Below, in pieces: positions 38,835 through 55,277 of a DNA stretch of 58,485 nucleotides. The translations under genes and the position numbers were made by a program. The stretch is taken from positions 1 to 58,485 of the forward strand of contig DAOVTB010000006.1 in assembly GCA_030633305.1 (NCBI GenBank). The letters are read 5' to 3'. Position 1 is the first letter of the stretch, and every line of letters starts with the position of its first letter. Below the pieces are notes generated by a model that saw only the letters and a program-made list of their open reading frames with translations, was not told where the DNA came from and searched no databases. This DNA is from Candidatus Muiribacteriota bacterium (lineage in GTDB: Bacteria > Muiribacteriota > DAOVTB01).

Positions 38835-39884
38835 TTATTTAAGAATACATGAAGAACTTGAAGGCCCTTTATGTTTATCCTCCATATTAAATCTCATTGA
38901 AGGGATACTATAACTTAATTTATGAGTTGAAATAACTTCTTTCCCGTCTTTTTTATAAAGAGTATCTATTTTTATGCCCACTTTGACTTCATCAATTACT
39001 TCAATAGACAGATTTTTGAGAGAGAGAATTTTATAACGAAAAAATGCATAATCAGAATTTTCTTTTTTTACAAGTCCTTTTTTCGAATCTTTAAATTCAA
39101 GATATACCGTTTCAGGTGTTAGCAGTTCACCAAAAATAAGGTAATCTGTACTTTTACTTAGATTTGTTCTTAGGTCATTACTTATAATCAAATCAGCAAA
39201 AGTAATAGGAGAGCTTTCAAAGGTCATGAATTTACGAAAATCAGGTGAAATTGTATGAGAAAATTTAAGAAGATAATTTTTATCCAGTTTATTTTTATCA
39301 TCAAATGTGATTTCGCCTAGTTTTATTCTTGTCTTTAATCCCTGTTTTGTGCCAATAAAGGAATTGATAAAGCTTTGAATAGCATAGGAAATATCTTCCA
39401 AATGAAGATTTGATAGTACAACTTTTCTCTTTTCAAGTACAGGTTTCCAGTCATGATTAGGATTGATAAATGCATTTGTAAATTTAACATAACTTTTCAA
39501 TTTTTCTGAAGCTGTTGCAAACATGGCATTATCGATCATTTCCTTGAAAGAGGAAAAGATGGTTGTTAATGTATTCATATTTTTTTGAAAACCTTTTAGA
39601 TCCGTATAAAATGGAGGAGGATTTTTATAGTAGGTCTGGTAGATATTGAAAAGTATAGCATATGCTTTTTCGAATTTATCCAGAGCTAAATTCTTATTAC
39701 GGTTTATTATTTGATAAGCCATATCATCAACTTTCTGAGAAAATGTAGAAAATTCATTAAAAAATGAAAGATCAACAAATTGAGGAGACACGGTTATCAG
39801 GAATTGAATACCTGATGAACATGGATATACAGAGTTAATGACCAGGAATAATAAAAGGAATAAAGTTATAAATTTGATTTTCAT
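38835..39884 (-). CDS. Exported protein of unknown function, last gene of the HEAT/TPR operon
   Basis: The ATG at 39884 has GGAG six bases upstream and starts a signal segment (KIKFITLFLLLFLVINSVYP) followed by a cysteine that may be lipidated. The 349-residue product is helical in its first half and then has mixed strands. No family is recognised. It lies 25 bases after the NTT-HEAT fusion gene and reads as its operon partner. Confidence 0.6.
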   Translation of the reverse strand: MKIKFITLFLLLFLVINSVYPCSSGIQFLITVSPQFVDLSFFNEFSTFSQKVDDMAYQIINRNKNLALDKFEKAYAILFNIYQTYYKNPPPFYTDLKGFQKNMNTLTTIFSSFKEMIDNAMFATASEKLKSYVKFTNAFINPNHDWKPVLEKRKVVLSNLHLEDISYAIQSFINSFIGTKQGLKTRIKLGEITFDDKNKLDKNYLLKFSHTISPDFRKFMTFESSPITFADLIISNDLRTNLSKSTDYLIFGELLTPETVYLEFKDSKKGLVKKENSDYAFFRYKILSLKNLSIEVIDEVKVGIKIDTLYKKDGKEVISTHKLSYSIPSMRFNMEDKHKGPSSSSCILK

Positions 39885-39909
39885 ATTTTCTCCAATAATA
39901 ATACAATTT

Positions 39910-42900
39910 TTATTTTTCATCTGTCTCATTTTTTTTTATAAAATTTGTTTGAATATCATCAATTAAATTCCCCATAAGGGACCAGTCCTGAATTTTTTCC
40001 AATGTTTCTGCAGCAATTTTTTTAACATTGGAATCATGATCTTTAGTTAGTTTTACAAGAGGCAAAATAATTTCACTCATTACTATCTCGCCCAAAATCG
40101 TTGCTGTTACAGATTTCAATGCAGGATCACTCATTTCAAGTAAACCTGTCAGAAATGATATTTCAGGCAGGTTCAGTTTCGGTTCGCTTTCCTTCTTTGA
40201 AATGTCTTCAAGATAAAGTCTTTCAAGGTCACTTATGAGAATGTCTGAGAGTTCTTTTGAAACAATTGAATCAAGTGCTTCGATTGCGTTTGCTCTCATT
40301 TTTTTGTTTGTATCCTTGAGCCGTTGCTTTATTATTTTAAGCTTACTGTCATCAAAATTAAGGCTTAGAAAAGTAAAAATATTATCGAAAATTATGTCAT
40401 CCAGATTAAGCAATTCTTCAATTAATACAGTCGTATTATCATATTTTGCAATCAGCATCTGAAGGTGGTGTATCATGGATTTGTTTTTAAAAAGACATTC
40501 AAGCTCTTTTTTTATATAACTGCATAGTTCCTTGTTTGTCAAATTGATTCCAGCTTTATAAAAACAGGTGATCGTAATGTTTCTAATTCTAGGATCAGGA
40601 CTATCAAGGAGTTGAGTGAAAAAGTTTTTATACTTCACGTTGCTCAGGGCATGCAGGGAATTCAATGCCTTTTCTTTTATGAAAAATTCCTCAGCTTTAA
40701 AAAGGATACTTTTTAAAACAGTTTTTATTGAAATTACTATTTTTTCAGAACTATTAATTTCATCCAGTAAATTGATATTATCTGTCAACAGAATGTTTGA
40801 GAGTGTATCTGATACAACTGAAATATTTTTTATATCACTATCAAAGGAAAGGTTAATATCATTGATAAAATCAGAATTCATTTTTTCTAGTGCAATATAT
40901 GCATTTTTCTGCACATCAATATCTGAATCTTTTGTAGCTTTTATAATAAGCGGTGCATAGTCTTTGTTTTTAAGATCTCCAAAAGCATAAAGGGAGTTTA
41001 TTCTAGTCCATTTATCGTTGCTCCTGAGCATATTCTTCAAAGTCAGGATTCCTTTATCGACACTATATTTACAAAGTATTTTGGCGGCAGTTGCTTTGAC
41101 TCTGTCATTTGAATCGTTCAAGAGAGGTTGAATGTAACTTGAAGGAATTGGTTCTTCAAGGTGGAATATTTCTTCAAGGATATTTGCTCGCACTCGAGGG
41201 TCAGAGTCATCAAGACCGTTTACAAAAATTTTCCAGACATCTGGGATCTCAAATATTCTCAAACTTTTAACGATTTGAGCTCGAATGACAGCATCTTTAT
41301 GTGTAAACATCGATATGATCTGTGATTTGAATTCAATCATATTTGCTGATTCAATAAGATTGATTACTTTTCCAAGTATTTGGGAATTTTCAGACTCAAT
41401 GAGAATTTTCCTGGTTAATTTTGTTTTGATATTATCTGGAAATATTGTAAGCAAGGGAATTAGATTATTCAAAAAAACATATTCAGTATTTTCGTGATTG
41501 AGTGATGAGTGAAATTTTTCTTCAAGCCAGTTTAGTTTATCGTCTGAAATTATGCTTTTAATTGCTGTTATAATAATCTGATTATACGGAGTGTTATTCT
41601 GAAGCATTGATACAAGTAATTGAATTGAATTGATTAGATTCAGGTTGATAATGCATTTGATGGCATTTCTCACAACGACTTCGTTATTCGAATTTTTTAT
41701 TATTTCTATAATCTCTTTTTCAAAACCTTCGATTTTTATGTTACTGATAACAAACAATGCAGATGCTGTCATAAATTTATTTCCGGAGCGGAGCATAAAA
41801 TCCAGTTCTTTTCTAGCAATTTCTTTACCTTCAAGTCCCAACGTGTAAATAGCCATTATTGCATTGCCTTTTACTCGGTTGTTCTTATCTTTTACCAATT
41901 CGATAATCCTGTCTTGAAATTGTGTTAATTTTAGTTCGATGATCGCTTCAATCGTATTGGCTTTTATCCTGCTTTCTTCATTTGAATTTAGATTTTTTTC
42001 TATGATTGGAATTATACCCTTATGAGATAATTTTGATATTACTTTTATTGTTGTTGCTTTGACTCTTCCAACAGACTCTGTTTTTAATATATTGACAAGT
42101 AATTCTATGACTTCGTCATTATTGAAATTTCCAAGACTTTGTACTGCTGAAGCGCGGACGAAAGGATTGGAATCTCTGAGAGCTTTTTTCAGGGAGTTAA
42201 AAATCTGGGTAGAAAATTTAAATTTTCCAAGTGCCATTACTGCATTTGCTCTTACAGTTGGATTTGTATCGTTAAACATAGCATTAATTAATGGCTCTAT
42301 AGCATTGTTATCTCTGATCCCTGAAAGTGATTCTATTGCAGTAAATTTCATGTCGTAATTAGATTCACTTAAATTTTTGATTAAAAGTCTTACATAGTCT
42401 TTTTTCAAATATGATGCAAGTAATATCCAACCGATAAGTAGGATAATAGCAAGAAACATGTAATTTTTGATGTGAAAAGTATTAAGAAAAATAAGAATAA
42501 ATCCTGAAGACATTATAGCAATAGGTACAGCTAGTCCATCCAGAAACAATCGAATTCTTCCTCTGAACTGGTCTGGTATGGAGTTAAATAGAATGTGATA
42601 AACGCTGTCCTGTATTGAGTAAACCATGGAAATTCGACAGGATCTTAATAAAATTGCTGACCAAAGTGTTCCGGGGAAGATCAGGGTATTCAAAACTGCT
42701 AAAAACATTATACATGGAAATATGAACAATGAACTTCCTACTCCAAAATGTTTAAGAATTCGGTATGTTATAAAGATTTGGACGATGATTGCAAAAAAGG
42801 ATGAGCCACCTCTAACAAGTGAGTAAAGTGATGCAAGTTTTTCCGGTGAAGGGGTTTTGCTGCAGGTGATACCGAAATAATAATAATCACATATATAAAG

Positions 42901-43608
42901 TACAAGCCACATGCAGAAAAGAAGTAAGCCGAGTAATGACATGAAAGTTGATTTTCTAAAATACTGAAATCCTTCTGAAAAAGCGGCAATTCCTATTTTT
43001 GACGTTGTTTTTATGTTCAACTGAAAAGAATACTTTTTCATGATTCTAGAAAATAGCATGATGCTGATAATGGTTGCTGCGGACCAGACTAGAATAACAT
43101 GTGTTATCGAAAAGAGTGACAATGTATAACTGATTATAAACCCGGATAAAAGAGAACCGATTAATCCACCTGATGAGATTAATGGGAATAGTCTTTTGGC
43201 TTCACGCGTATTACATAGATCGTTGGCCAGAGCCCAGAATTGCATTATTGTTATAATCCAAATGATCTGGACTACTATGTATATAATAAAAATTCCGATT
43301 CTGTTTTGTAAATGTTGAAAGAATACAGAAATTGCGATTGGGAAACAGAAAATTAAACCCAACGTAATCATAAAAAGTCTGTCTCGTTTGAACCTGTCGA
43401 TGAAAAATAATGAAAAGAATGTAACAATAGAAGTCAGGATGGCGAACAATATGTACATGTATGGAAGACGATTTATTCCTCCAAATGGACTTGATAGAAA
43501 AAGTGAGTTTCCAATATTTATGCCGGTAATATTACCAAAGATCAGGAAAAAATAGAGGAATAGAAGATTATATAGTTTTTCTTTTTCGTTATCATTTATT
43601 ATAATCAT
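39910..43608 (-). CDS. NTT/MFS-like membrane domain fused to a long HEAT-repeat array
   Basis: The 1232-residue protein starts with about 410 residues of roughly twelve membrane helices (GNITGINIGNSLFLSSPFGG, FWALANDLCNTREAKRLFPL, LISSGGLIGSLLSGFIISYT) that look like the ATP/ADP translocase (NTT/Npt) branch of the major facilitator fold. The rest, about 430-1232, is HEAT repeats such as NPTVRANAVMALGKF and NPFVRASAVQSLGNF. Known NTT proteins are about 500 residues and lack this tail, so the fusion looks like a membrane sensor or scaffold. The start ATG overlaps the REC-GAF gene as ATGA. No transport substrate can be assigned. Confidence 0.8.
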   Translation of the reverse strand: MIIINDNEKEKLYNLLFLYFFLIFGNITGINIGNSLFLSSPFGGINRLPYMYILFAILTSIVTFFSLFFIDRFKRDRLFMITLGLIFCFPIAISVFFQHLQNRIGIFIIYIVVQIIWIITIMQFWALANDLCNTREAKRLFPLISSGGLIGSLLSGFIISYTLSLFSITHVILVWSAATIISIMLFSRIMKKYSFQLNIKTTSKIGIAAFSEGFQYFRKSTFMSLLGLLLFCMWLVLYICDYYYFGITCSKTPSPEKLASLYSLVRGGSSFFAIIVQIFITYRILKHFGVGSSLFIFPCIMFLAVLNTLIFPGTLWSAILLRSCRISMVYSIQDSVYHILFNSIPDQFRGRIRLFLDGLAVPIAIMSSGFILIFLNTFHIKNYMFLAIILLIGWILLASYLKKDYVRLLIKNLSESNYDMKFTAIESLSGIRDNNAIEPLINAMFNDTNPTVRANAVMALGKFKFSTQIFNSLKKALRDSNPFVRASAVQSLGNFNNDEVIELLVNILKTESVGRVKATTIKVISKLSHKGIIPIIEKNLNSNEESRIKANTIEAIIELKLTQFQDRIIELVKDKNNRVKGNAIMAIYTLGLEGKEIARKELDFMLRSGNKFMTASALFVISNIKIEGFEKEIIEIIKNSNNEVVVRNAIKCIINLNLINSIQLLVSMLQNNTPYNQIIITAIKSIISDDKLNWLEEKFHSSLNHENTEYVFLNNLIPLLTIFPDNIKTKLTRKILIESENSQILGKVINLIESANMIEFKSQIISMFTHKDAVIRAQIVKSLRIFEIPDVWKIFVNGLDDSDPRVRANILEEIFHLEEPIPSSYIQPLLNDSNDRVKATAAKILCKYSVDKGILTLKNMLRSNDKWTRINSLYAFGDLKNKDYAPLIIKATKDSDIDVQKNAYIALEKMNSDFINDINLSFDSDIKNISVVSDTLSNILLTDNINLLDEINSSEKIVISIKTVLKSILFKAEEFFIKEKALNSLHALSNVKYKNFFTQLLDSPDPRIRNITITCFYKAGINLTNKELCSYIKKELECLFKNKSMIHHLQMLIAKYDNTTVLIEELLNLDDIIFDNIFTFLSLNFDDSKLKIIKQRLKDTNKKMRANAIEALDSIVSKELSDILISDLERLYLEDISKKESEPKLNLPEISFLTGLLEMSDPALKSVTATILGEIVMSEIILPLVKLTKDHDSNVKKIAAETLEKIQDWSLMGNLIDDIQTNFIKKNETDEK

Positions 43609-45998
43609 AATTCATCAAGGAATATGCAGTTATCTACTGATTCGAAATGATTGCAGAGGTTGTTGAACTGAGTAATGATCTTTTTTTCAAGATCAAAATA
43701 GTATTCAGGAAAACTTGCTGCGATAACGTTAGGTATAAGATCAAACTTATTTTTTAATTGTTCAATTATCGTATTCACGACAATATTGTTTCCCTCACGT
43801 GTGGTTTCTGGTAAAAGTATCCAGAATTTATTATCAGGTTCATATGAGGTGATGTCAATATCTCTTAGTTGAGATTGAAGGAATTTACCAATATCAGAGA
43901 CATCTTTAACCGATAATTTGTGATCTGATTTTACCATTGGGAAAAAGATCAGTATCATTGACAGAGGCCTGTCATATCTTTGGGCTCTTATAGTTTCTTC
44001 TTTTAATCTGCTTAAAAAATAAGAGTGATTAAATAAACCGCTTTGTGGGTCTTTAACAGCAAAATGATAAAGCTTTCTTTTATCAATTATTACGCCGATC
44101 TGGTTTGTAATATTTTTGACGATTTTCAGGTCATCAGTAGAAAATTCGTGTTCATGATTACCCAGACATATGATTATTCCATTTGTTTGATTTCCTGTTT
44201 TGATCAATGAATACATTAAATTGAATGTAATACCTTTATTTGAATAATCATTGTGAATGGAATCAGTTTTGGCGTTTATCCATTTATCTGCAAGATTATT
44301 TACAAAATCATAGTAATCACCATGTTCATTATAGCAATTCAGTGAATCATTATCTTTTAAAAATATGAAGATCTCATCGTTGTTTAAAAGTAATTTTGTT
44401 TTTTCCGTAATGATATTGAGGATCTGATTTGTATCATCAAGCATATTGATAGCCTTACTTAAAGAGAAAAGGGTTGATATTTCCCAGTTTTTTCTATCAA
44501 CTTCAGTGAGGTTTTTTTTCATTTTACTATATAGATGAGAGTTTTCTATTATTATTCCGATCATATTTGAAAGTAGACTCATCAATAAAAAATCATCTTT
44601 ATCGAAATGAGCACTGTCATTTTTTCCAGTTACATTTATTACACCAAGCACTTTTTCCTGGTTAATTATGGGTACAGAAATGAATGATGCAGTGGAATAA
44701 TTTCTTTTTGTCCCGGTTTTGAATCTTTCATCCTGTGTAATATTTTTACTGAGTATTCCTTCTTTATGCTTGATAACCCAGTCTGTTACAGAACCTTCTT
44801 CAATTGGAAGGTCTGAATTTTTCAAAATATCACATGAAATTCCAATCCCTACACGAAAAAAGAACTTTTTAAGTGTTTGATCTATCAGGAACAAGGTTAC
44901 TTTGTCTGAATCAAGGACTTTGCTGATTACATTTACGATTGTTTCCATCAATGTAGATACTTCCAGTTGATTTTGTAAAAGTTTTCCTATTTCAAAAACA
45001 GTTTCAAGTTTTAATCCTTTAGTATAATCCGATATTTTAAGAGAATGGTAATTATGTGATGCTGTAAGCAGAGCAGAAAGTTGTTTGGATATAATCTTGA
45101 ATAGTGATGTTGAATCAAATGTTTTATTATTTTGAAAGACAAGTCCGATTTTTCCAATGATAGTATCGCCCAGTTCCAGTTTTGAACAGGTTTCATCATA
45201 ATCAAGGGGATCGTTCGAAAAATCCTTAGGATCAGTGGAAGGATATTTGATAAGCCTTTTGGTTATGGAAACATCTCCCTGTAGATTATAAAATCTGATA
45301 TCGCTTAATAGCGATTGATAATGATCTACAATTAAATTTGGCATATTATTCGGAGCATAAATAAATGTATTAAGTTTGTTATCAGACACTATGGACAGGT
45401 AAGCCATGTCCAGGTTAAAAAATAACAAAAGAAGTTCAAAACATTTTTCAACAGTAGTTGGAAAATCTGTCATGGAATCCGAAAGATTTGATATTTCTTC
45501 GATAATCATAAGATCATTGATTTTATTTTCAAGGATGGTATTTACTTTTTCCAAAAGGAAGCTTTCGTTGATATGTTGATCTTGATATTTTGAAATTATG
45601 CTTTTGGGATAGCTTGGATTATATTTATCAAGAAGATTTTGAATTTTTTGAAACAATATTTCAGGTTCAAAATTTTTGGAGACATATTCATCTGCACCAG
45701 CCTTTTTTCCCTGAAAAATTTTTTCTTTTTTCGTTAACTGGGTCAAAAGAATAAGAGGTATGTTTTTAAAAACGGGATCAGTTTTGAAATATCGACATGT
45801 TTGAAATCCGTTCATGACAGGCATTACAAGATCAAGAATAATAAGATGTGGAAAGAAAGAATAAGCTTTCTTTATTGCATCAACGCCGTTTTCGGCAGTT
45901 TCAACTTCATACCCATGAGAACTTAGCGTAAACTGCATGAGTTTCAGTACAGTTACACTGTCGTCAACTACAAGTATTTTATATTTTGAAGCGGACAT
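43605..45998 (-). CDS. Response-regulator hybrid: REC-GAF-GAF-GAF-degenerate GGDEF
   Basis: The 797-residue protein has a receiver (D12, D13, phospho-acceptor D56 in LIILDLVMP, then a K in EYVSKNF), three GAF-like domains (about 150-320, 325-510 with SVTDWVIKHKEGILSKN and GVINVTG, and 520-640), and a C-terminal GGDEF-type fold (KDPQSGLFNHSYFLSRLKEE). The signature loop GG(D/E)EF is replaced by EPDNKFWILLPET, so it should not make cyclic-di-GMP; it may bind GTP or act as an interaction domain. It is flanked by HEAT proteins in the same operon. Confidence 0.85.
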   Translation of the reverse strand: MSASKYKILVVDDSVTVLKLMQFTLSSHGYEVETAENGVDAIKKAYSFFPHLIILDLVMPVMNGFQTCRYFKTDPVFKNIPLILLTQLTKKEKIFQGKKAGADEYVSKNFEPEILFQKIQNLLDKYNPSYPKSIISKYQDQHINESFLLEKVNTILENKINDLMIIEEISNLSDSMTDFPTTVEKCFELLLLFFNLDMAYLSIVSDNKLNTFIYAPNNMPNLIVDHYQSLLSDIRFYNLQGDVSITKRLIKYPSTDPKDFSNDPLDYDETCSKLELGDTIIGKIGLVFQNNKTFDSTSLFKIISKQLSALLTASHNYHSLKISDYTKGLKLETVFEIGKLLQNQLEVSTLMETIVNVISKVLDSDKVTLFLIDQTLKKFFFRVGIGISCDILKNSDLPIEEGSVTDWVIKHKEGILSKNITQDERFKTGTKRNYSTASFISVPIINQEKVLGVINVTGKNDSAHFDKDDFLLMSLLSNMIGIIIENSHLYSKMKKNLTEVDRKNWEISTLFSLSKAINMLDDTNQILNIITEKTKLLLNNDEIFIFLKDNDSLNCYNEHGDYYDFVNNLADKWINAKTDSIHNDYSNKGITFNLMYSLIKTGNQTNGIIICLGNHEHEFSTDDLKIVKNITNQIGVIIDKRKLYHFAVKDPQSGLFNHSYFLSRLKEETIRAQRYDRPLSMILIFFPMVKSDHKLSVKDVSDIGKFLQSQLRDIDITSYEPDNKFWILLPETTREGNNIVVNTIIEQLKNKFDLIPNVIAASFPEYYFDLEKKIITQFNNLCNHFESVDNCIFLDEL

Positions 45999-46015
45999 TG
46001 GATTTACCTATGCAC

Positions 46016-46705
46016 TCAGAGTTCCGGTTGATCAGTTACTGAATCATCAATATATTTCTCAGCGTACCCGATTAGAGCCAGGACAGCATTTTTTGCAACG
46101 AGTTCATCTTTTTCAGCCAAAGCACTTATGCATTCATCCGTAAATTCCAGAACTCCAATTTCACCAAAAGCATAGAATGCACTTGCGCGCATCCAACGAG
46201 ATGGATCTTTTACCATTTTTTCAAAACATTCAATGATCTTGTCACGTAATTCGTCACATTGCCATAATGCAATAAGTGTATTTGATTTTGTTCTATTATC
46301 TGGATCATCAACCATAGGTAAAAGCAGTTTTTTTAACCGAGAGCTGCCGCATAACGAAAGTGCTTCAACGGTGTTGGCTCTGACCCTGTTATTTTCATCT
46401 CGAAGCAGTTTTGCAAGAAGTGGAATATAATCGTGATTTGAAGCAACGGGAAGAAATTTTACAACGGAAGCTTTTAACCTGTTATCTTTTGCCTGTTCCA
46501 GGTAATTTATTACTTCCTCAATTATCTTTGGATCCTTTGCGCGTGAGAGAACAGTGAGATATTTCAAAATGATATCAATATCTTTATTATTGATTATTTC
46601 ATTCTTGAAGAGAGCTTTTATTTCCTTCTCTCCAAAAGTAGTATTCATTAAATTTTCGATTGCTTTTTTTTCTGGAAGTCTTATGATTTCTTCTAGAGTT
46701 TTCAT
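46016..46705 (-). CDS. HEAT-repeat protein (soluble)
   Basis: About 229 residues of HEAT repeats (NRVRANTVEALSLCGSS, DNRTKSNTLIALWQCDEL, SRWMRASAFYAFGEIG) without a signal peptide or membrane segment. The repeats closely resemble those in the NTT fusion gene downstream (VRANAVMALGKF), which suggests they belong to one system. AGGAG lies eight bases before the ATG at 46705; the frame itself opens at a TTG at 46711. Its start lies 107 bases inside the end of the TPR gene. Confidence 0.8.
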   Translation of the reverse strand: MKTLEEIIRLPEKKAIENLMNTTFGEKEIKALFKNEIINNKDIDIILKYLTVLSRAKDPKIIEEVINYLEQAKDNRLKASVVKFLPVASNHDYIPLLAKLLRDENNRVRANTVEALSLCGSSRLKKLLLPMVDDPDNRTKSNTLIALWQCDELRDKIIECFEKMVKDPSRWMRASAFYAFGEIGVLEFTDECISALAEKDELVAKNAVLALIGYAEKYIDDSVTDQPEL

Positions 46706-48818
46706 CAACAATTCTCCTCTTGGAATTTAGCAGAAACGGAGTAGTCCCATGCTGTGAACATGTGACTGTATTATTAATATCAATAAGATATTTTCCATTA
46801 TCACAGGTATAAGAAATTATATCATAAATAATATTGAATTGTCCATTCTCAATTTCCAGATCAAGGCTTATACCTTCTATTGGAGGAGGCATAAGATATT
46901 TTTCATGTATGAGTTTAGGAATACTGAAATTCCCGCGGGTAACATAACTATTTCTATAAAGACTGCCCTTGAGGTCTCTGTTGAAATTATTAACTGCACT
47001 TTGTAAAACGACCTGCCTTATCCAGCATGATGTGATGGAAGCTATTTTCTTATATTTTTCCTGTTGTTTATATACCGGAAGTTGTTTGCCAAGTTGGAAA
47101 AGAAGTAGAGAGGCAAGGTCATATTTTTTTTGTTTGTAATAGATGAGCATCAGATAATAAATTGATTCTATATCTCCAGGGTTGTTTTCGATCGAAGTGA
47201 TATAGCCGATCCTCATATTTTCCAATCCTTCTTCTTTTTTTTGTGCTTCAAGGAGTATCTGAGCCTTTTCAAAGTAGGATTTTATCTGAGCTTTTATTTC
47301 GCTTGGAACAATTTCCTCTTCTATTGTGTCATTATTTTTTTCTTCAGTGTCATCATGCTGGTTTTGTTTCAGTATAAGATTATTTTCCCATCGCATGATC
47401 AGATTTTTATAATCATCAATATCGTCATTTTCTATTACGGATTTGTCTTCTTTCGCTGTATCTTCTGCATTTATTTCTTTTAGATCATTATTTCTTGAAG
47501 GCTCTTTATTTAAAAAAAGTGTAACAAGTTTTTCTTTTTCAAGGCCAAATGTCTTAACTGGTTTTCCAGGTTCAAATTCTGCATGTGCTTTTTTCAAACT
47601 GTCTACCAGAGAAATTTGAGCTTCACTTGAAAGAATTACATTGCCATGATCAAAAACCAGATCTTCTTCATCGAAATCATCCATGTCAATATCTATCTTG
47701 TCATCTGATGTTGTGTTGATATTAACATCAATATCATCATCTGTTTTTGAAACAGTCTGTATTTCTTTTGTAAAAACAACCTCTGTTTGATCCAGACTTC
47801 CAACTCCCTGCGTTGCTTTAATTGAAGCTTTTGCAATATAGTTTCTGTCTTCCTGGATAGAATCTCCAGGTGTAATTATTTCGAAATCAGTGTTTCTGAT
47901 TGATTCATCAATTTCAGTTTTTTTGGTAACATCAAAATATATCATGCTTTTAATCCTGTCGATTGCTTTTTTGATTCGTTCTTCTTTTGGTTTTCCAATA
48001 AGGCTTCTTTGATAACAAAGGAGTGACTTTCTTAAATCTTTTTTCTTTTCATAATATTTCCCGAGCCAGAACCAGTATGAAGATGGATTTGATGTTTTAG
48101 TAAGTACTTTTTTTTTCTTTTCAATTATTTCAAGATGTGTATTTTTTTCAAGCATGGATTTTGCCTCAGCATTTTCAGGATCAATTGAAAGGACTTTTTC
48201 AAATGCACGTTTTGCTTTGCCGTGTTTTTTTATACTTGTATAAAATTTCCCGCTTTGAAGCCAGCGTAATGCATTTTCGCTTTTAATAATCTTGTCAGAT
48301 TTACCAACTATTTCTACTGTGGACTCTAATTTTTTTTTAACTTCAACTTCAGGTGCATTTTTTACCTTCAATTTATTGAAAAGTGTAATGGCTTTGATAT
48401 TGAATGGATTGAGCTTAAGTGATTTTTTCACTGCGATCATCGATTTGTCAAACTGGCTTTTTTCAAAATGATATTCTGCATTTACATACCATTGAAATGA
48501 TCTTCCTTTTTGAGTAAAATCTACACTTTGAGAACCGGATATTTCATTAAAGGCAGCGTGTTTTTTTCTGATTTCGTAAAGAAGTTCGCTTGCTTTTACA
48601 TTTTCAGGATTAAGGTCAAGAGCCTTTTTAAGAGCTGAAACTGCTCGAGGTATGTCCACCTTTTTTTTGTAGTAATATTTACCATTAAGATACCAGTAGT
48701 ATGAGTTTTCGTCGTTGATTTTCTGGTCTGTTTTTCCGAGTAATGGGAATAAATTTACGAAAAATAAAACAAAAATGAGAATAACAATTCTTCCAAACAA
48801 TTTTGCTTTATTTTTCAT
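46599..48818 (-). CDS. Exported TPR protein heading the HEAT/TPR operon
   Basis: The 739-residue protein has an N-terminal signal or anchor (GRIVILIFVLFFVNLFPLLG) and then TPR-like units built on WYLNGKYYYKKKVDIPRAVS, RSFQWYVNAEYHFEKSQFDKS and similar, with an acidic low-complexity middle. Near the end is a module (YTCDNGKYLIDINNTVTCSQHGTT) of the CxxG...CxxHG kind seen in pseudopilin-like proteins. The last about 35 residues are very basic and overlap the HEAT gene. It is the first gene of a five-gene run 48818-38835. Confidence 0.7.
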   Translation of the reverse strand: MKNKAKLFGRIVILIFVLFFVNLFPLLGKTDQKINDENSYYWYLNGKYYYKKKVDIPRAVSALKKALDLNPENVKASELLYEIRKKHAAFNEISGSQSVDFTQKGRSFQWYVNAEYHFEKSQFDKSMIAVKKSLKLNPFNIKAITLFNKLKVKNAPEVEVKKKLESTVEIVGKSDKIIKSENALRWLQSGKFYTSIKKHGKAKRAFEKVLSIDPENAEAKSMLEKNTHLEIIEKKKKVLTKTSNPSSYWFWLGKYYEKKKDLRKSLLCYQRSLIGKPKEERIKKAIDRIKSMIYFDVTKKTEIDESIRNTDFEIITPGDSIQEDRNYIAKASIKATQGVGSLDQTEVVFTKEIQTVSKTDDDIDVNINTTSDDKIDIDMDDFDEEDLVFDHGNVILSSEAQISLVDSLKKAHAEFEPGKPVKTFGLEKEKLVTLFLNKEPSRNNDLKEINAEDTAKEDKSVIENDDIDDYKNLIMRWENNLILKQNQHDDTEEKNNDTIEEEIVPSEIKAQIKSYFEKAQILLEAQKKEEGLENMRIGYITSIENNPGDIESIYYLMLIYYKQKKYDLASLLLFQLGKQLPVYKQQEKYKKIASITSCWIRQVVLQSAVNNFNRDLKGSLYRNSYVTRGNFSIPKLIHEKYLMPPPIEGISLDLEIENGQFNIIYDIISYTCDNGKYLIDINNTVTCSQHGTTPFLLNSKRRIVDENSRRNHKTSRKKSNRKFNEYYFWREGNKSSLQE

Positions 48819-52273: not shown

Positions 52274-54475
52274 GTGAACAAATTTAATAAAATATCTTTC
52301 AAGGTAATGAGTATCTTTTTACTTGCATCTTGTGTTGCGATCATAGTTGGGTATAATTCTTACAAAACATTGAGCCAAACAAAAGAAAATGCAGAATATG
52401 TTAAAAATAAGGTGAAACCAATATCAGTAACAATTATGTTTATTGATCGGAAATTCAGTCAGTTAAATCAGGTTGGTGAAAAACTACAGGCAGGAAGTAT
52501 AAGGGAAAAGTCTGATTTTTCTACTTTTGAAAGTATTGAAAGTAAACTTTTTTCATATATTGAAAATCTGAAAGTAGAGGCTGCAAATTCTGAAATCTTT
52601 CAGTTGCGCGACTATGCTATTGGTCTTGAAAGCAGGTTGAAAAGCTATAAACAGGCAATAGTTAAAATAAAAGGTATCAATAAAGAGTTCTCTCTGGTTA
52701 AGACTCAAATAAAGTCAACAAACAGTAAGATAATTACAAATTTTGAAAATTTGATTAAACAAGATGTAGATGGAACATTAGGTATAATGAGTTCTTCCAA
52801 TATTGCAGACTTTTATAATAAATGGCGGAGTATTGAAGGAAAAATTTCCAGGGTTATAGGGAAATCAAAAGGCAGTAAGACTGATATTAAAGAAGAAATG
52901 GTTCTGATTAACAAAAATTTGGAACAGCTTGATAGAAAATATACTGCTATTGGTTCCTCTGAAATTACCAAAACAATTTCTGAGATTAAAAATGATTTAT
53001 CGGATTACTCTAATCAAACAACCAGTCTTGATGTGAAAAAAAAATCTGTGTTTGAGATTCAGAATGAAATAACAAATCTGGTTAAAAAAATCCAGGGTGG
53101 TGGACGAGATTCAGGTGGCGGACTTATCAATGAATGTCTTATGGCGTATAATTTCCAAATGGATTCAAAATTACAGAATATGGGAAAAGTAGCTGATGAT
53201 TCCAGTAGAACAATTTTCATGATCCTTTTGATTGGTATTACAATTGTTCTTATTGTTGGTGGAATGATTACATATAGACTCGTTATTTCCATTCATGAGC
53301 TTGAAGCAAAAGCACTTGATATTGCTGCAGGAAATCTTGATCAGACAATTGAAGTAAAATCTACAGATGAACTTGGTGTTTTTGCAACTGCTTTCAATTC
53401 AATGCTTTCTAATATAAAAGCGATGATGGAAAATGAATCGAATTCAAAACTCTATCTTCAACAGCAGATAACACTTCTTTCTAAAATAATAAAGAAGGCC
53501 AGTGATGGAGATTTTGCAAGCAGGATTACTCAGAATCTTGATGGCGAAATGGAAAAACTGGGGGTTGACTTTAATGTAATGGTTGATAATCTGAGTGAAC
53601 TTATCATGCAGGTAGCCAAACTGGTTGAAAGGGTGGTTGATTCTTCGGAAAATATTAACACCATCGCTAAAGAACAATCAGCGGGCGCAAAAATCCAGAG
53701 TCTTAAGATCAGCGATACCTCTGTCGCGATGGAGGAATTGACTGTTTCGATTCAACAGGTTTCTGATAATGCTGAAATTGCAGAAAGAGAAGCTTTGAGG
53801 GCTACAGAAGTTGCTGTTACTGGAGGGCTTGCTGTACAGAAAACAATAGATGGTATGAAAAATATCAGATTTACTGTACAGGAAACCGCTAAAAAAATTA
53901 AAGGTCTTGGAGAAAGTTCACAGGAAATTGGTGAAATCGTAGAAGTTATAGGAGATATCGCAGAACAAACCAATCTTCTGGCTTTGAATGCTGCTATTGA
54001 AGCTGCAAGAGCGGGGGAACATGGAAGAGGATTTGCAGTTGTTGCAGATGAAATACGGGTATTGGCTGATAGGTCTGGAAAAGCAGCGAAGGAAATTGAA
54101 ATCCTTATCAAAAGGATTCAGTCAGAAACGAATGAATCTGTTATGGCGATGGAACAAGGTACAAAGGGAGTTCTTGCGGGAACCCAACTTGCCGATGAAG
54201 CCGGCCTGGCTTTGAAACAGATTGTAGAAGTTGTAACAAAGACAAATGAAGTAATCAGAGAGATTTCCCTGGCATCTAAACAGCAGGCGACTGCTAGTGA
54301 AGAGGTTGTTGTATCAATGGAGAATATTTCAGAGATTACAAAAAGTGTTACTCAGAGATCCGATACTACATTTGATGCTGCAACCGGGCTTAAACAGGTT
54401 TCTATGGCGCTGAAAAAATCTATTATAAAATTTAAGGTTATTGACGAGGAGAAAGTGAATGATTCTGACGCCTGA
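52274..54475 (+). CDS. Methyl-accepting chemotaxis protein with tandem HAMP
   Basis: The 733-residue receptor has two membrane segments (about 8-28 and 315-338), a helical periplasmic sensor between them, a HAMP domain ([20 protein letters not shown]) and a second HAMP-like unit ([10 protein letters not shown] to [11 protein letters not shown]), and the signalling tip [20 protein letters not shown]. The C-terminus ([12 protein letters not shown]) lacks the NWETF-type CheR pentapeptide. It starts with GTG at 52274 behind AAGGAGG at 11 bases. It overlaps cheR by 17 bases. The ligand cannot be told. Confidence 0.93.
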
Positions 54476-55277
54476 TGAATTCACTGATTTTACAAATTTC
54501 ATCAAGGATAAATTTGGTCTGATATTTAAGAGCAACAAGATTGAATTATTAAGTAAAGTCATTGAAAACAGACTAGAATTTGCAGGTTTTAAAAAAAATT
54601 CGGAATACATTGAATATTTGAAGAATTCATTTGGTATTTCTGGAGAACATGATTATCTGGTTGAAAATCTTACAACAAGAGAAACGTCTTTTTTTCGTTT
54701 TCGTCCTCAACTTGAATCGCTTGAAAAAAAAGTATTGCCAGAAATTTTTGAACAAAAAGTGAAATCAGGGGAAAAGGAATTGAGAATATGGTCAGCAGGA
54801 ATCTCAACTGGAGAAGAACCTTACACTATAGGACTGATTCTTGATAAATTGATTCCTTTGAGAAGGACCTGGAACATTGACATCCTTGGTACGGATATTA
54901 CCAAAGATGTACTTAAAACGGCTGCGGTATGCAGATATCCAATTGAAAGCCTCAAGGAGATTCCGGAGGAATTCCACAAAAAGCTGGTCATAATGTCGAA
55001 TTATTTCACTATTATGCCTGATATAAAAAAAATGATGACATTCAAGTTTTTAAATCTTATAAATGAGATTTATCCTGTTGGAATGGATATTATTATGTGT
55101 AGAAATGTGATGATTTATTTCTCGCATGCAATTAGAAGCAGGATATTTGAAAAATTTTACAGATGTCTTAATAAAGGTGGTTACCTGTTTTTAGGACATA
55201 CTGAAAGCATGCAGTCTTTTAAACATGGGTTCAAACAGAATTTTGTTAAAGATGCAGTTTATTATACCAAGGAGTAA
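54459..55277 (+). CDS. cheR: Chemotaxis protein methyltransferase CheR
   Basis: The 272-residue protein has the small helical N-terminal CheR domain, then [18 protein letters not shown] and [20 protein letters not shown], both diagnostic of CheR, and ends [12 protein letters not shown]. It methylates MCP glutamates with SAM in the cytoplasm. GAGGAG precedes the ATG, which lies inside the MCP gene. No cheB is visible in the window. Confidence 0.95.

Follow-up and report, generated by a model that had tools for sequence, protein, structure and literature searches.

Fusions of an NTT permease domain to C-terminal HEAT repeats, with or without a further cyclic nucleotide-binding domain (cNBD), were described in 2017 (PMC5381601). 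According to the available sections of that paper, such NTT-HEAT fusions are widespread in bacteria, among them cyanobacteria and chlamydial pathogens, and form a single clade in the published tree; it was suggested that the cNBD could adjust ATP uptake, and at that date no cyanobacterial NTT-HEAT fusion had been functionally characterised. The words HAMP, Cache, receiver, response regulator, GGDEF, TamB, sensor and GAF do not occur in its main text. Here we analysed a 58,485-nucleotide stretch of DNA (the window) from a Candidatus Muiribacteriota bacterium (assembly GCA_030633305.1, contig DAOVTB010000006.1). Five open reading frames (ORFs) on its minus strand, together spanning positions 38835-48818, encode a TPR protein, a soluble HEAT-repeat protein, a protein with a receiver (REC), GAF domains and a degenerate ("dead") GGDEF domain, an NTT-HEAT fusion and an exported protein. 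We favour, at a probability of about 45%, the reading that the locus is a lineage-specific variant of a sensor-gated inner-membrane permease, in which the REC-GAF-dead-GGDEF protein is the sensor.

The permease gene (39910-43608, minus strand; 1232 amino acids) was examined as an ORF, by Pfam, by profile comparison and by structure prediction. It is a member of the NTT-HEAT fusion family: both the NTT domain and the C-terminal HEAT repeats are present. A first-pass annotation of the window had called its N-terminal part an NTT/MFS-like permease, and this name can be kept. The Pfam assignment is borderline (TLC 21.2 bits versus a cut-off of 21.0; MFS_1 below cut-off), and the family profile matches solved NTT structures: a profile of 20 homologues searched against the PDB hit CpNTT1 (9j3n) with an E value of 6.5e-23 and AtNTT1 with 6.6e-17, the next match being at 0.0035. 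The permease domain (42370-43608; profile envelope, residues 1-413) contains 12 hydrophobic segments, taken as 12 predicted transmembrane helices, with 26 lysine plus arginine residues in the even-numbered loops versus 5 in the odd ones. This distribution suggests an N-in/C-in topology and would place the HEAT tail in the cytoplasm. The same annotation had put about 800 HEAT residues behind the permease, in agreement with Pfam (HEAT_2 3.5e-59, seven stretches, about residues 405-1215; 39964-42396). Residues 1-567 were modelled with the help of nine relatives, and the model was compared with known structures: VIA-align ranked AtNTT1 first (9j3m; Z 28.5 over 408 residues) and lactose permease third (25.7), with CpNTT1 at 23.2, while Foldseek put MFS multidrug transporters (NorA) at the top and AtNTT1 at rank 6.

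Relatives of the permease are common. It was matched in at least 30 of 56 genomes, and its profile in at least 90 of 381 genomes at 1e-15. Both counts take in the genome of the window itself; they are lower bounds, and the 381-genome search took the best four candidates in most genomes. Many matches lie in frames longer than 800 amino acids, and others are stand-alone NTTs of 400-500 amino acids, of which the window's genome also carries one (C185). A scan of genome contigs with the single window permease sequence found no relative.

Gene neighbourhoods of the fusion were compared in two sets. The first holds 48 neighbourhoods (47 from the window's phylum and one from outside), with partners counted by tblastn; the second holds 40 places in 34 genomes outside the phylum, picked among the better-scoring long frames and therefore not a random sample. 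Pfam confirmed HEAT repeats in 46 of the 48 tails of the first set and in 36 of 39 scanned tails outside the phylum, with a fused cNBD in 7 and 16, respectively. The fortieth place was omitted from the HEAT scan and is still counted in the cNBD tally; in its long frame (L196:7104-11093) the NTT part lies at the C-terminal end, an order unlike the usual one, and it is not an NTT-HEAT fusion. In the first set a cNBD was fused or nearby in 26 neighbourhoods and a dCache-HAMP receptor was adjacent in 21; a single neighbourhood (L109) had neither. A looser tblastn tally outside the phylum gave a cNBD in 31 of 40 places; these include two at a distance of over 5 kb, one encoded on the other strand and two that lie upstream. 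Length-based ORF calling in high-GC loci hid some HAMP genes (L061, L100, L112, L118) and cNBD genes (L064, L067), and the frame ends of the hidden HAMP genes were read separately after the tblastn count.

The HAMP receptors beside the fusion have a peculiar layout. All 21 frames end shortly after HAMP, many with a tail like LEKxRxxxxIW, so that no output is visible except the partner protein; the dCache matches themselves are below the Pfam cut-off. A PhnD-like binding protein is present in 12 of the 21 loci. In a tree of 49 NTT domains (48 fusions and one stand-alone NTT) a 19-row clade (100/100) has an adjoining HAMP gene in 18 rows, counting a 30-residue HAMP fragment at a contig end (L113), and the PhnD-type protein in 12, identified as Phosphonate-bd by Pfam in three and by likeness to these in the others. 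A second clade, of three rows, also has a HAMP gene, located downstream. Ten of the 12 named HAMP-linked loci belong to Candidatus Riflebacteria and two carry other labels. The window protein falls outside the HAMP-linked clade. A trio of output-less dCache-HAMP receptor, NTT-HEAT and PhnD-like binding protein recurs in Ca. Riflebacteria (L105:6901-11764, L107, L110, L111, L114, L115, L117, L120 and others), and such receptors offer a clean setting in which to ask whether a transmembrane receptor can have a transporter as its direct output. On a contig labelled Candidatus Methylomirabilis (L135) we observed a HAMP-NTT locus that shares 56% identity with its Riflebacteria counterpart, either by transfer or by misbinning.

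In another family the genes for TamB, NTT-HEAT and a cNBD-GGDEF protein are adjacent (L063:3661-11830 and 12 similar places); TamB was found in 12 of the 13 places and the thirteenth is near a contig end. This adjacency hints at a link between NTT-HEAT and outer-membrane traffic. The cNBD-GGDEF genes of these 13 places have lost the catalytic motif and kept RxxD in 10 of 10 examined. Two further arrangements were observed: a stand-alone NTT, an Omp85/POTRA gene and NTT-HEAT in a row in two genomes outside the phylum (L182:4331-9844 and L179:4640-10458), and, at L074:6007-10821 and L103:3097-7941, an NTT-HEAT gene adjacent to genes for a small cNBD protein and a HAMP-SpoIIE phosphatase.

Neither of the usual partners was recognised for the window protein. 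No cNBD (cNMP_binding) match was obtained in the 15 window proteins scanned (the five and ten others), and no full-length HAMP receptor without an output domain was recognised in its own genome, where 15 profile matches included none in a frame of 370-400 amino acids. Directly upstream of the permease gene lies instead the gene of the REC-GAF-dead-GGDEF protein (43605-45998, minus strand; 797 amino acids), whose stop overlaps the NTT-HEAT start by 4 bases (43605-43608). Its receiver domain, already noticed in the first-pass annotation, is clear in Pfam (residues 8-120, 45639-45977; Response_reg 8.1e-24). The sequence contains VVDDS, ILDLVMP and VSK, which we take to be the acidic pocket, the phosphoacceptor Asp and the conserved Lys of a response regulator. 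Of the three GAF domains once counted, Pfam finds two stretches, the best at residues 346-485 (44544-44963). The GGDEF domain (residues 648-749, 43752-44057) is indeed broken, scoring 19.9 bits versus a cut-off of 23.8, with PDNKF in place of the GG[DE]EF motif of an active diguanylate cyclase; the six own-genome GGDEF paralogues examined, out of eight found, all keep GGEEF or GGEEL. The RxxD I-site is retained as RDID, and the domain may therefore act as a receptor of cyclic di-GMP (c-di-GMP); PelD provides a precedent for a dead GGDEF domain that binds c-di-GMP via RxxD, as described in the available part of PMC7112168. At an E value of 1e-30 the whole protein found itself and two own-genome places with a REC-GAF part, and no match among the best 18 candidates taken in most of the other 55 genomes. 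On contig C268 of the same genome (L079:2-5951) a REC protein, CheB and two REC-GAF proteins lie in a row, the second REC-GAF protein ending in SpoIIE; these REC-GAF proteins are the best own-genome matches to the N-terminal part of the window sensor.

Because NTT-HEAT relatives are usually linked to a sensor and the two genes overlap by 4 bases here, the REC-GAF-dead-GGDEF protein may stand in for the missing sensor. The 12-helix NTT/MFS domain is predicted to anchor the NTT-HEAT protein in the membrane, with the HEAT solenoid facing the cytoplasm and possibly serving as a docking scaffold for the sensor. In most sampled relatives the sensor, as indicated by gene linkage, would be a fused or nearby cNBD or a dCache-HAMP receptor that has no output domain; in this lineage, represented by one genome, the REC-GAF-degenerate-GGDEF protein may take that place. 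It could combine three inputs, namely phosphorylation of the receiver, small molecules bound by GAF and c-di-GMP bound at the RDID site, and these might then open, close or place the permease. The earlier proposal of an assembly for signalling or transport centred on the membrane survives in the weaker form of a sensor-linked NTT-HEAT protein, and its extension to all five genes does not.

Several observations weigh against this reading. No REC-GAF-GGDEF gene abuts NTT-HEAT on its strand in the sampled neighbourhoods, so that the pairing of sensor and permease in the window rests on one genome, and the nearest genomes compared are of the same phylum, none closer. The window GGDEF domain scores 31.5-52.6 bits against the intact paralogues of its own genome. 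Of the ten dead GGDEF domains from other NTT-HEAT loci, eight match it at 7.0-18.8 bits and two do not match; since it is closer to its own paralogues, the shared loss is convergent at best. Moreover, an NTT-HEAT-cNBD gene outside the phylum (L177) adjoins a gene with an intact-looking GGDEF, so loss of the GGDEF motif does not characterise these loci in general. The permease model is of moderate quality (mean predicted local distance difference test score, pLDDT, 65.7), and in the tree of NTT domains the window protein joins the cNBD-linked group weakly (85/73) on a long branch.

We rejected the five genes as a conserved system. The set was not seen in the 48 neighbourhoods of the first set, viewed as three ORFs on each side of the fusion, or in 20 more outside the phylum, and NTT-HEAT is common without the other four genes; the neighbourhood comparison proposed with the five-gene claim thus went against it. 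These 68 neighbourhoods contained one TPR match near a fusion, a generic one (L070, E 2e-9), and no match to the exported protein. A tblastn tally of all 88 neighbourhoods, made with the REC, GAF and exported queries alone, gave REC matches at four places (L120, L180, L184, L196) and GAF matches at three (L112, L118, L206), the three GAF matches all being on the opposite strand. As to the statement that no named system has this composition, the five-gene set was indeed unseen, but its NTT-HEAT fusion was already in print (PMC5381601).

The absence of the set from the sampled neighbourhoods is also what one expects of an ordinary mixed-function operon, in which an NTT-HEAT protein of known family and common TPR, HEAT and REC-GAF parts were packed together by chance in a genome rich in them. 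GAF/GGDEF and REC proteins are abundant in this genome, HEAT matches to the fusion number 41 (the fusion itself included), and a search of 56 genomes with the exported protein gave, besides itself, a single weak hit (7.5e-5) that contains a stop. We consider such a chance assembly quite possible, but it does not account well for the overlap of the sensor and permease genes or for the linkage of the NTT-HEAT family to sensors.

Two other explanations concern what the NTT domain does. It could be a canonical ATP/ADP carrier with added regulation, as the 2017 paper suggested for the cNBD, and its NTT fold agrees with this. Four residues, K155, E245, E385 and K527, are important in the plant carrier NTT1, according to the available text of PMC3306366 and PMC4256464. 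We mapped them by hand through the printed profile alignment, where a single offset of 84 suits each of the four. An acid is retained at E385, as D, but the window protein has Y at K155 and Q at E245, and the K527 stretch, located in a profile insertion, contains no lysine. The K155E variant of AtNTT1 fails to bind either ADP or ATP, and K527E no longer binds ATP (PMC3306366). None of the aligned rows that cover the K155 column has a lysine there, several cNBD-linked rows keep E245, and K527 seems to be retained in one protein outside the phylum (L191). With both key lysines absent from the window protein, a canonical ATP/ADP mechanism for the substrate of the window permease is unlikely, and we hold the regulated canonical carrier to be very improbable. 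The same missing lysines could mean that ordinary transport has been lost. On this view the NTT-like domain would act as a receptor or transceptor that senses a solute and signals through HEAT to the REC-GAF protein. The lack of an intact enzymatic output in that protein speaks in favour of this explanation, but the dCache-HAMP partner elsewhere is a receptor without an output domain, which argues for flow from sensor to permease, and the loss of two lysines is no proof that all transport is lost. We regard a transceptor as improbable.

A broader form of the sensor-gated permease would make NTT-HEAT a general output module of bacterial signalling, with interchangeable sensors docking on its HEAT part. 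These could be a cNBD, a dCache-HAMP receptor together with a periplasmic binding protein, or, as in the window, a REC-GAF protein whose dead GGDEF binds c-di-GMP. Here c-di-GMP and a phosphorelay would jointly gate a permease for a substrate other than ATP/ADP, with three further subunits in the TPR, HEAT and exported proteins. This extension is doubtful as a whole. The pattern of sensor swapping yields a testable idea, namely that the HEAT tail is a plug-in site for different sensors.

The remaining three genes were all found on the minus strand, as annotated. The TPR gene (46599-48818; 739 amino acids) encodes TPR_2 (2.1e-12) behind an N-terminal hydrophobic signal or anchor judged by eye, and the soluble HEAT gene (46016-46705) gives HEAT_2 at 1.1e-18, so both proteins were named correctly. 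The exported orphan (38835-39929; 364 amino acids) has a signal-peptide-like start, again by eye, no family match in Pfam and a single-sequence structure prediction with a mean pLDDT of 33.7. From position only, we weakly infer an accessory role for the three, in a scaffold or in the periplasm. The likeness between the HEAT repeats of the two genes, pointed out earlier, is real but not specific to this pair; we rejected a special relation because three other HEAT places in the genome outscore the neighbouring HEAT gene against the fusion. The gene spacings are -107, +17, -4 and -20 bases, and operon packing was judged from them alone. The first is the overlap of the TPR and soluble HEAT genes and the last that of NTT-HEAT and the exported protein. 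The 107-base overlap reported earlier holds provided that the HEAT start is ATG 46705, which is preceded by the ribosome site AGAGGAG; the reported 25-base gap does not, 17 bases being the widest. A PIN-PhoH gene lies upstream on the same strand after a 249-base gap, and on the opposite flank a polysaccharide deacetylase gene and a sigma-54 activator gene lie on the plus strand. Promoter (62 versus 51.5 expected) and terminator (10 versus 4.4 expected) scans were not used as evidence. Elsewhere in the window a chemoreceptor (HAMP, MCPsignal) is followed by CheR (52274-55277).

In comparison with described systems, no account of HAMP-linked or REC-GAF-linked NTT-HEAT loci was found in the literature searched, which mostly excluded subscription papers and is no proof of absence. 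The Ca. Riflebacteria loci share with the window a sensor gene directly beside NTT-HEAT, but they form a separate clade (100/100) and the window lacks an adjacent receptor or binding protein. PelD-type c-di-GMP receptors, in the available text of PMC7112168, likewise combine GAF with a dead GGDEF carrying RxxD in a membrane-linked operon; the window sensor differs by its N-terminal REC, its c-di-GMP binding is putative, and the likeness noted is one of domain features. With the ATP/ADP translocators AtNTT1 and CpNTT1 (PDB 9j3j, 9j3l-9j3o) the window protein shares the fold of the membrane domain, whereas it lacks K155, E245 and K527 and has an added HEAT tail. By profile and architecture it belongs to the same family as the NTT-HEAT and NTT-HEAT-cNBD fusions (PMC5381601), in which the permease is likewise followed by HEAT repeats; in contrast to the cNBD fusions, the window protein has no fused cNBD, none was seen nearby, and a REC-GAF-degenerate-GGDEF gene is coupled instead. 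We concluded that the NTT-HEAT(-cNBD) architecture was known already, and that what is new in this locus appears to be the replacement of the usual sensor by a different one.

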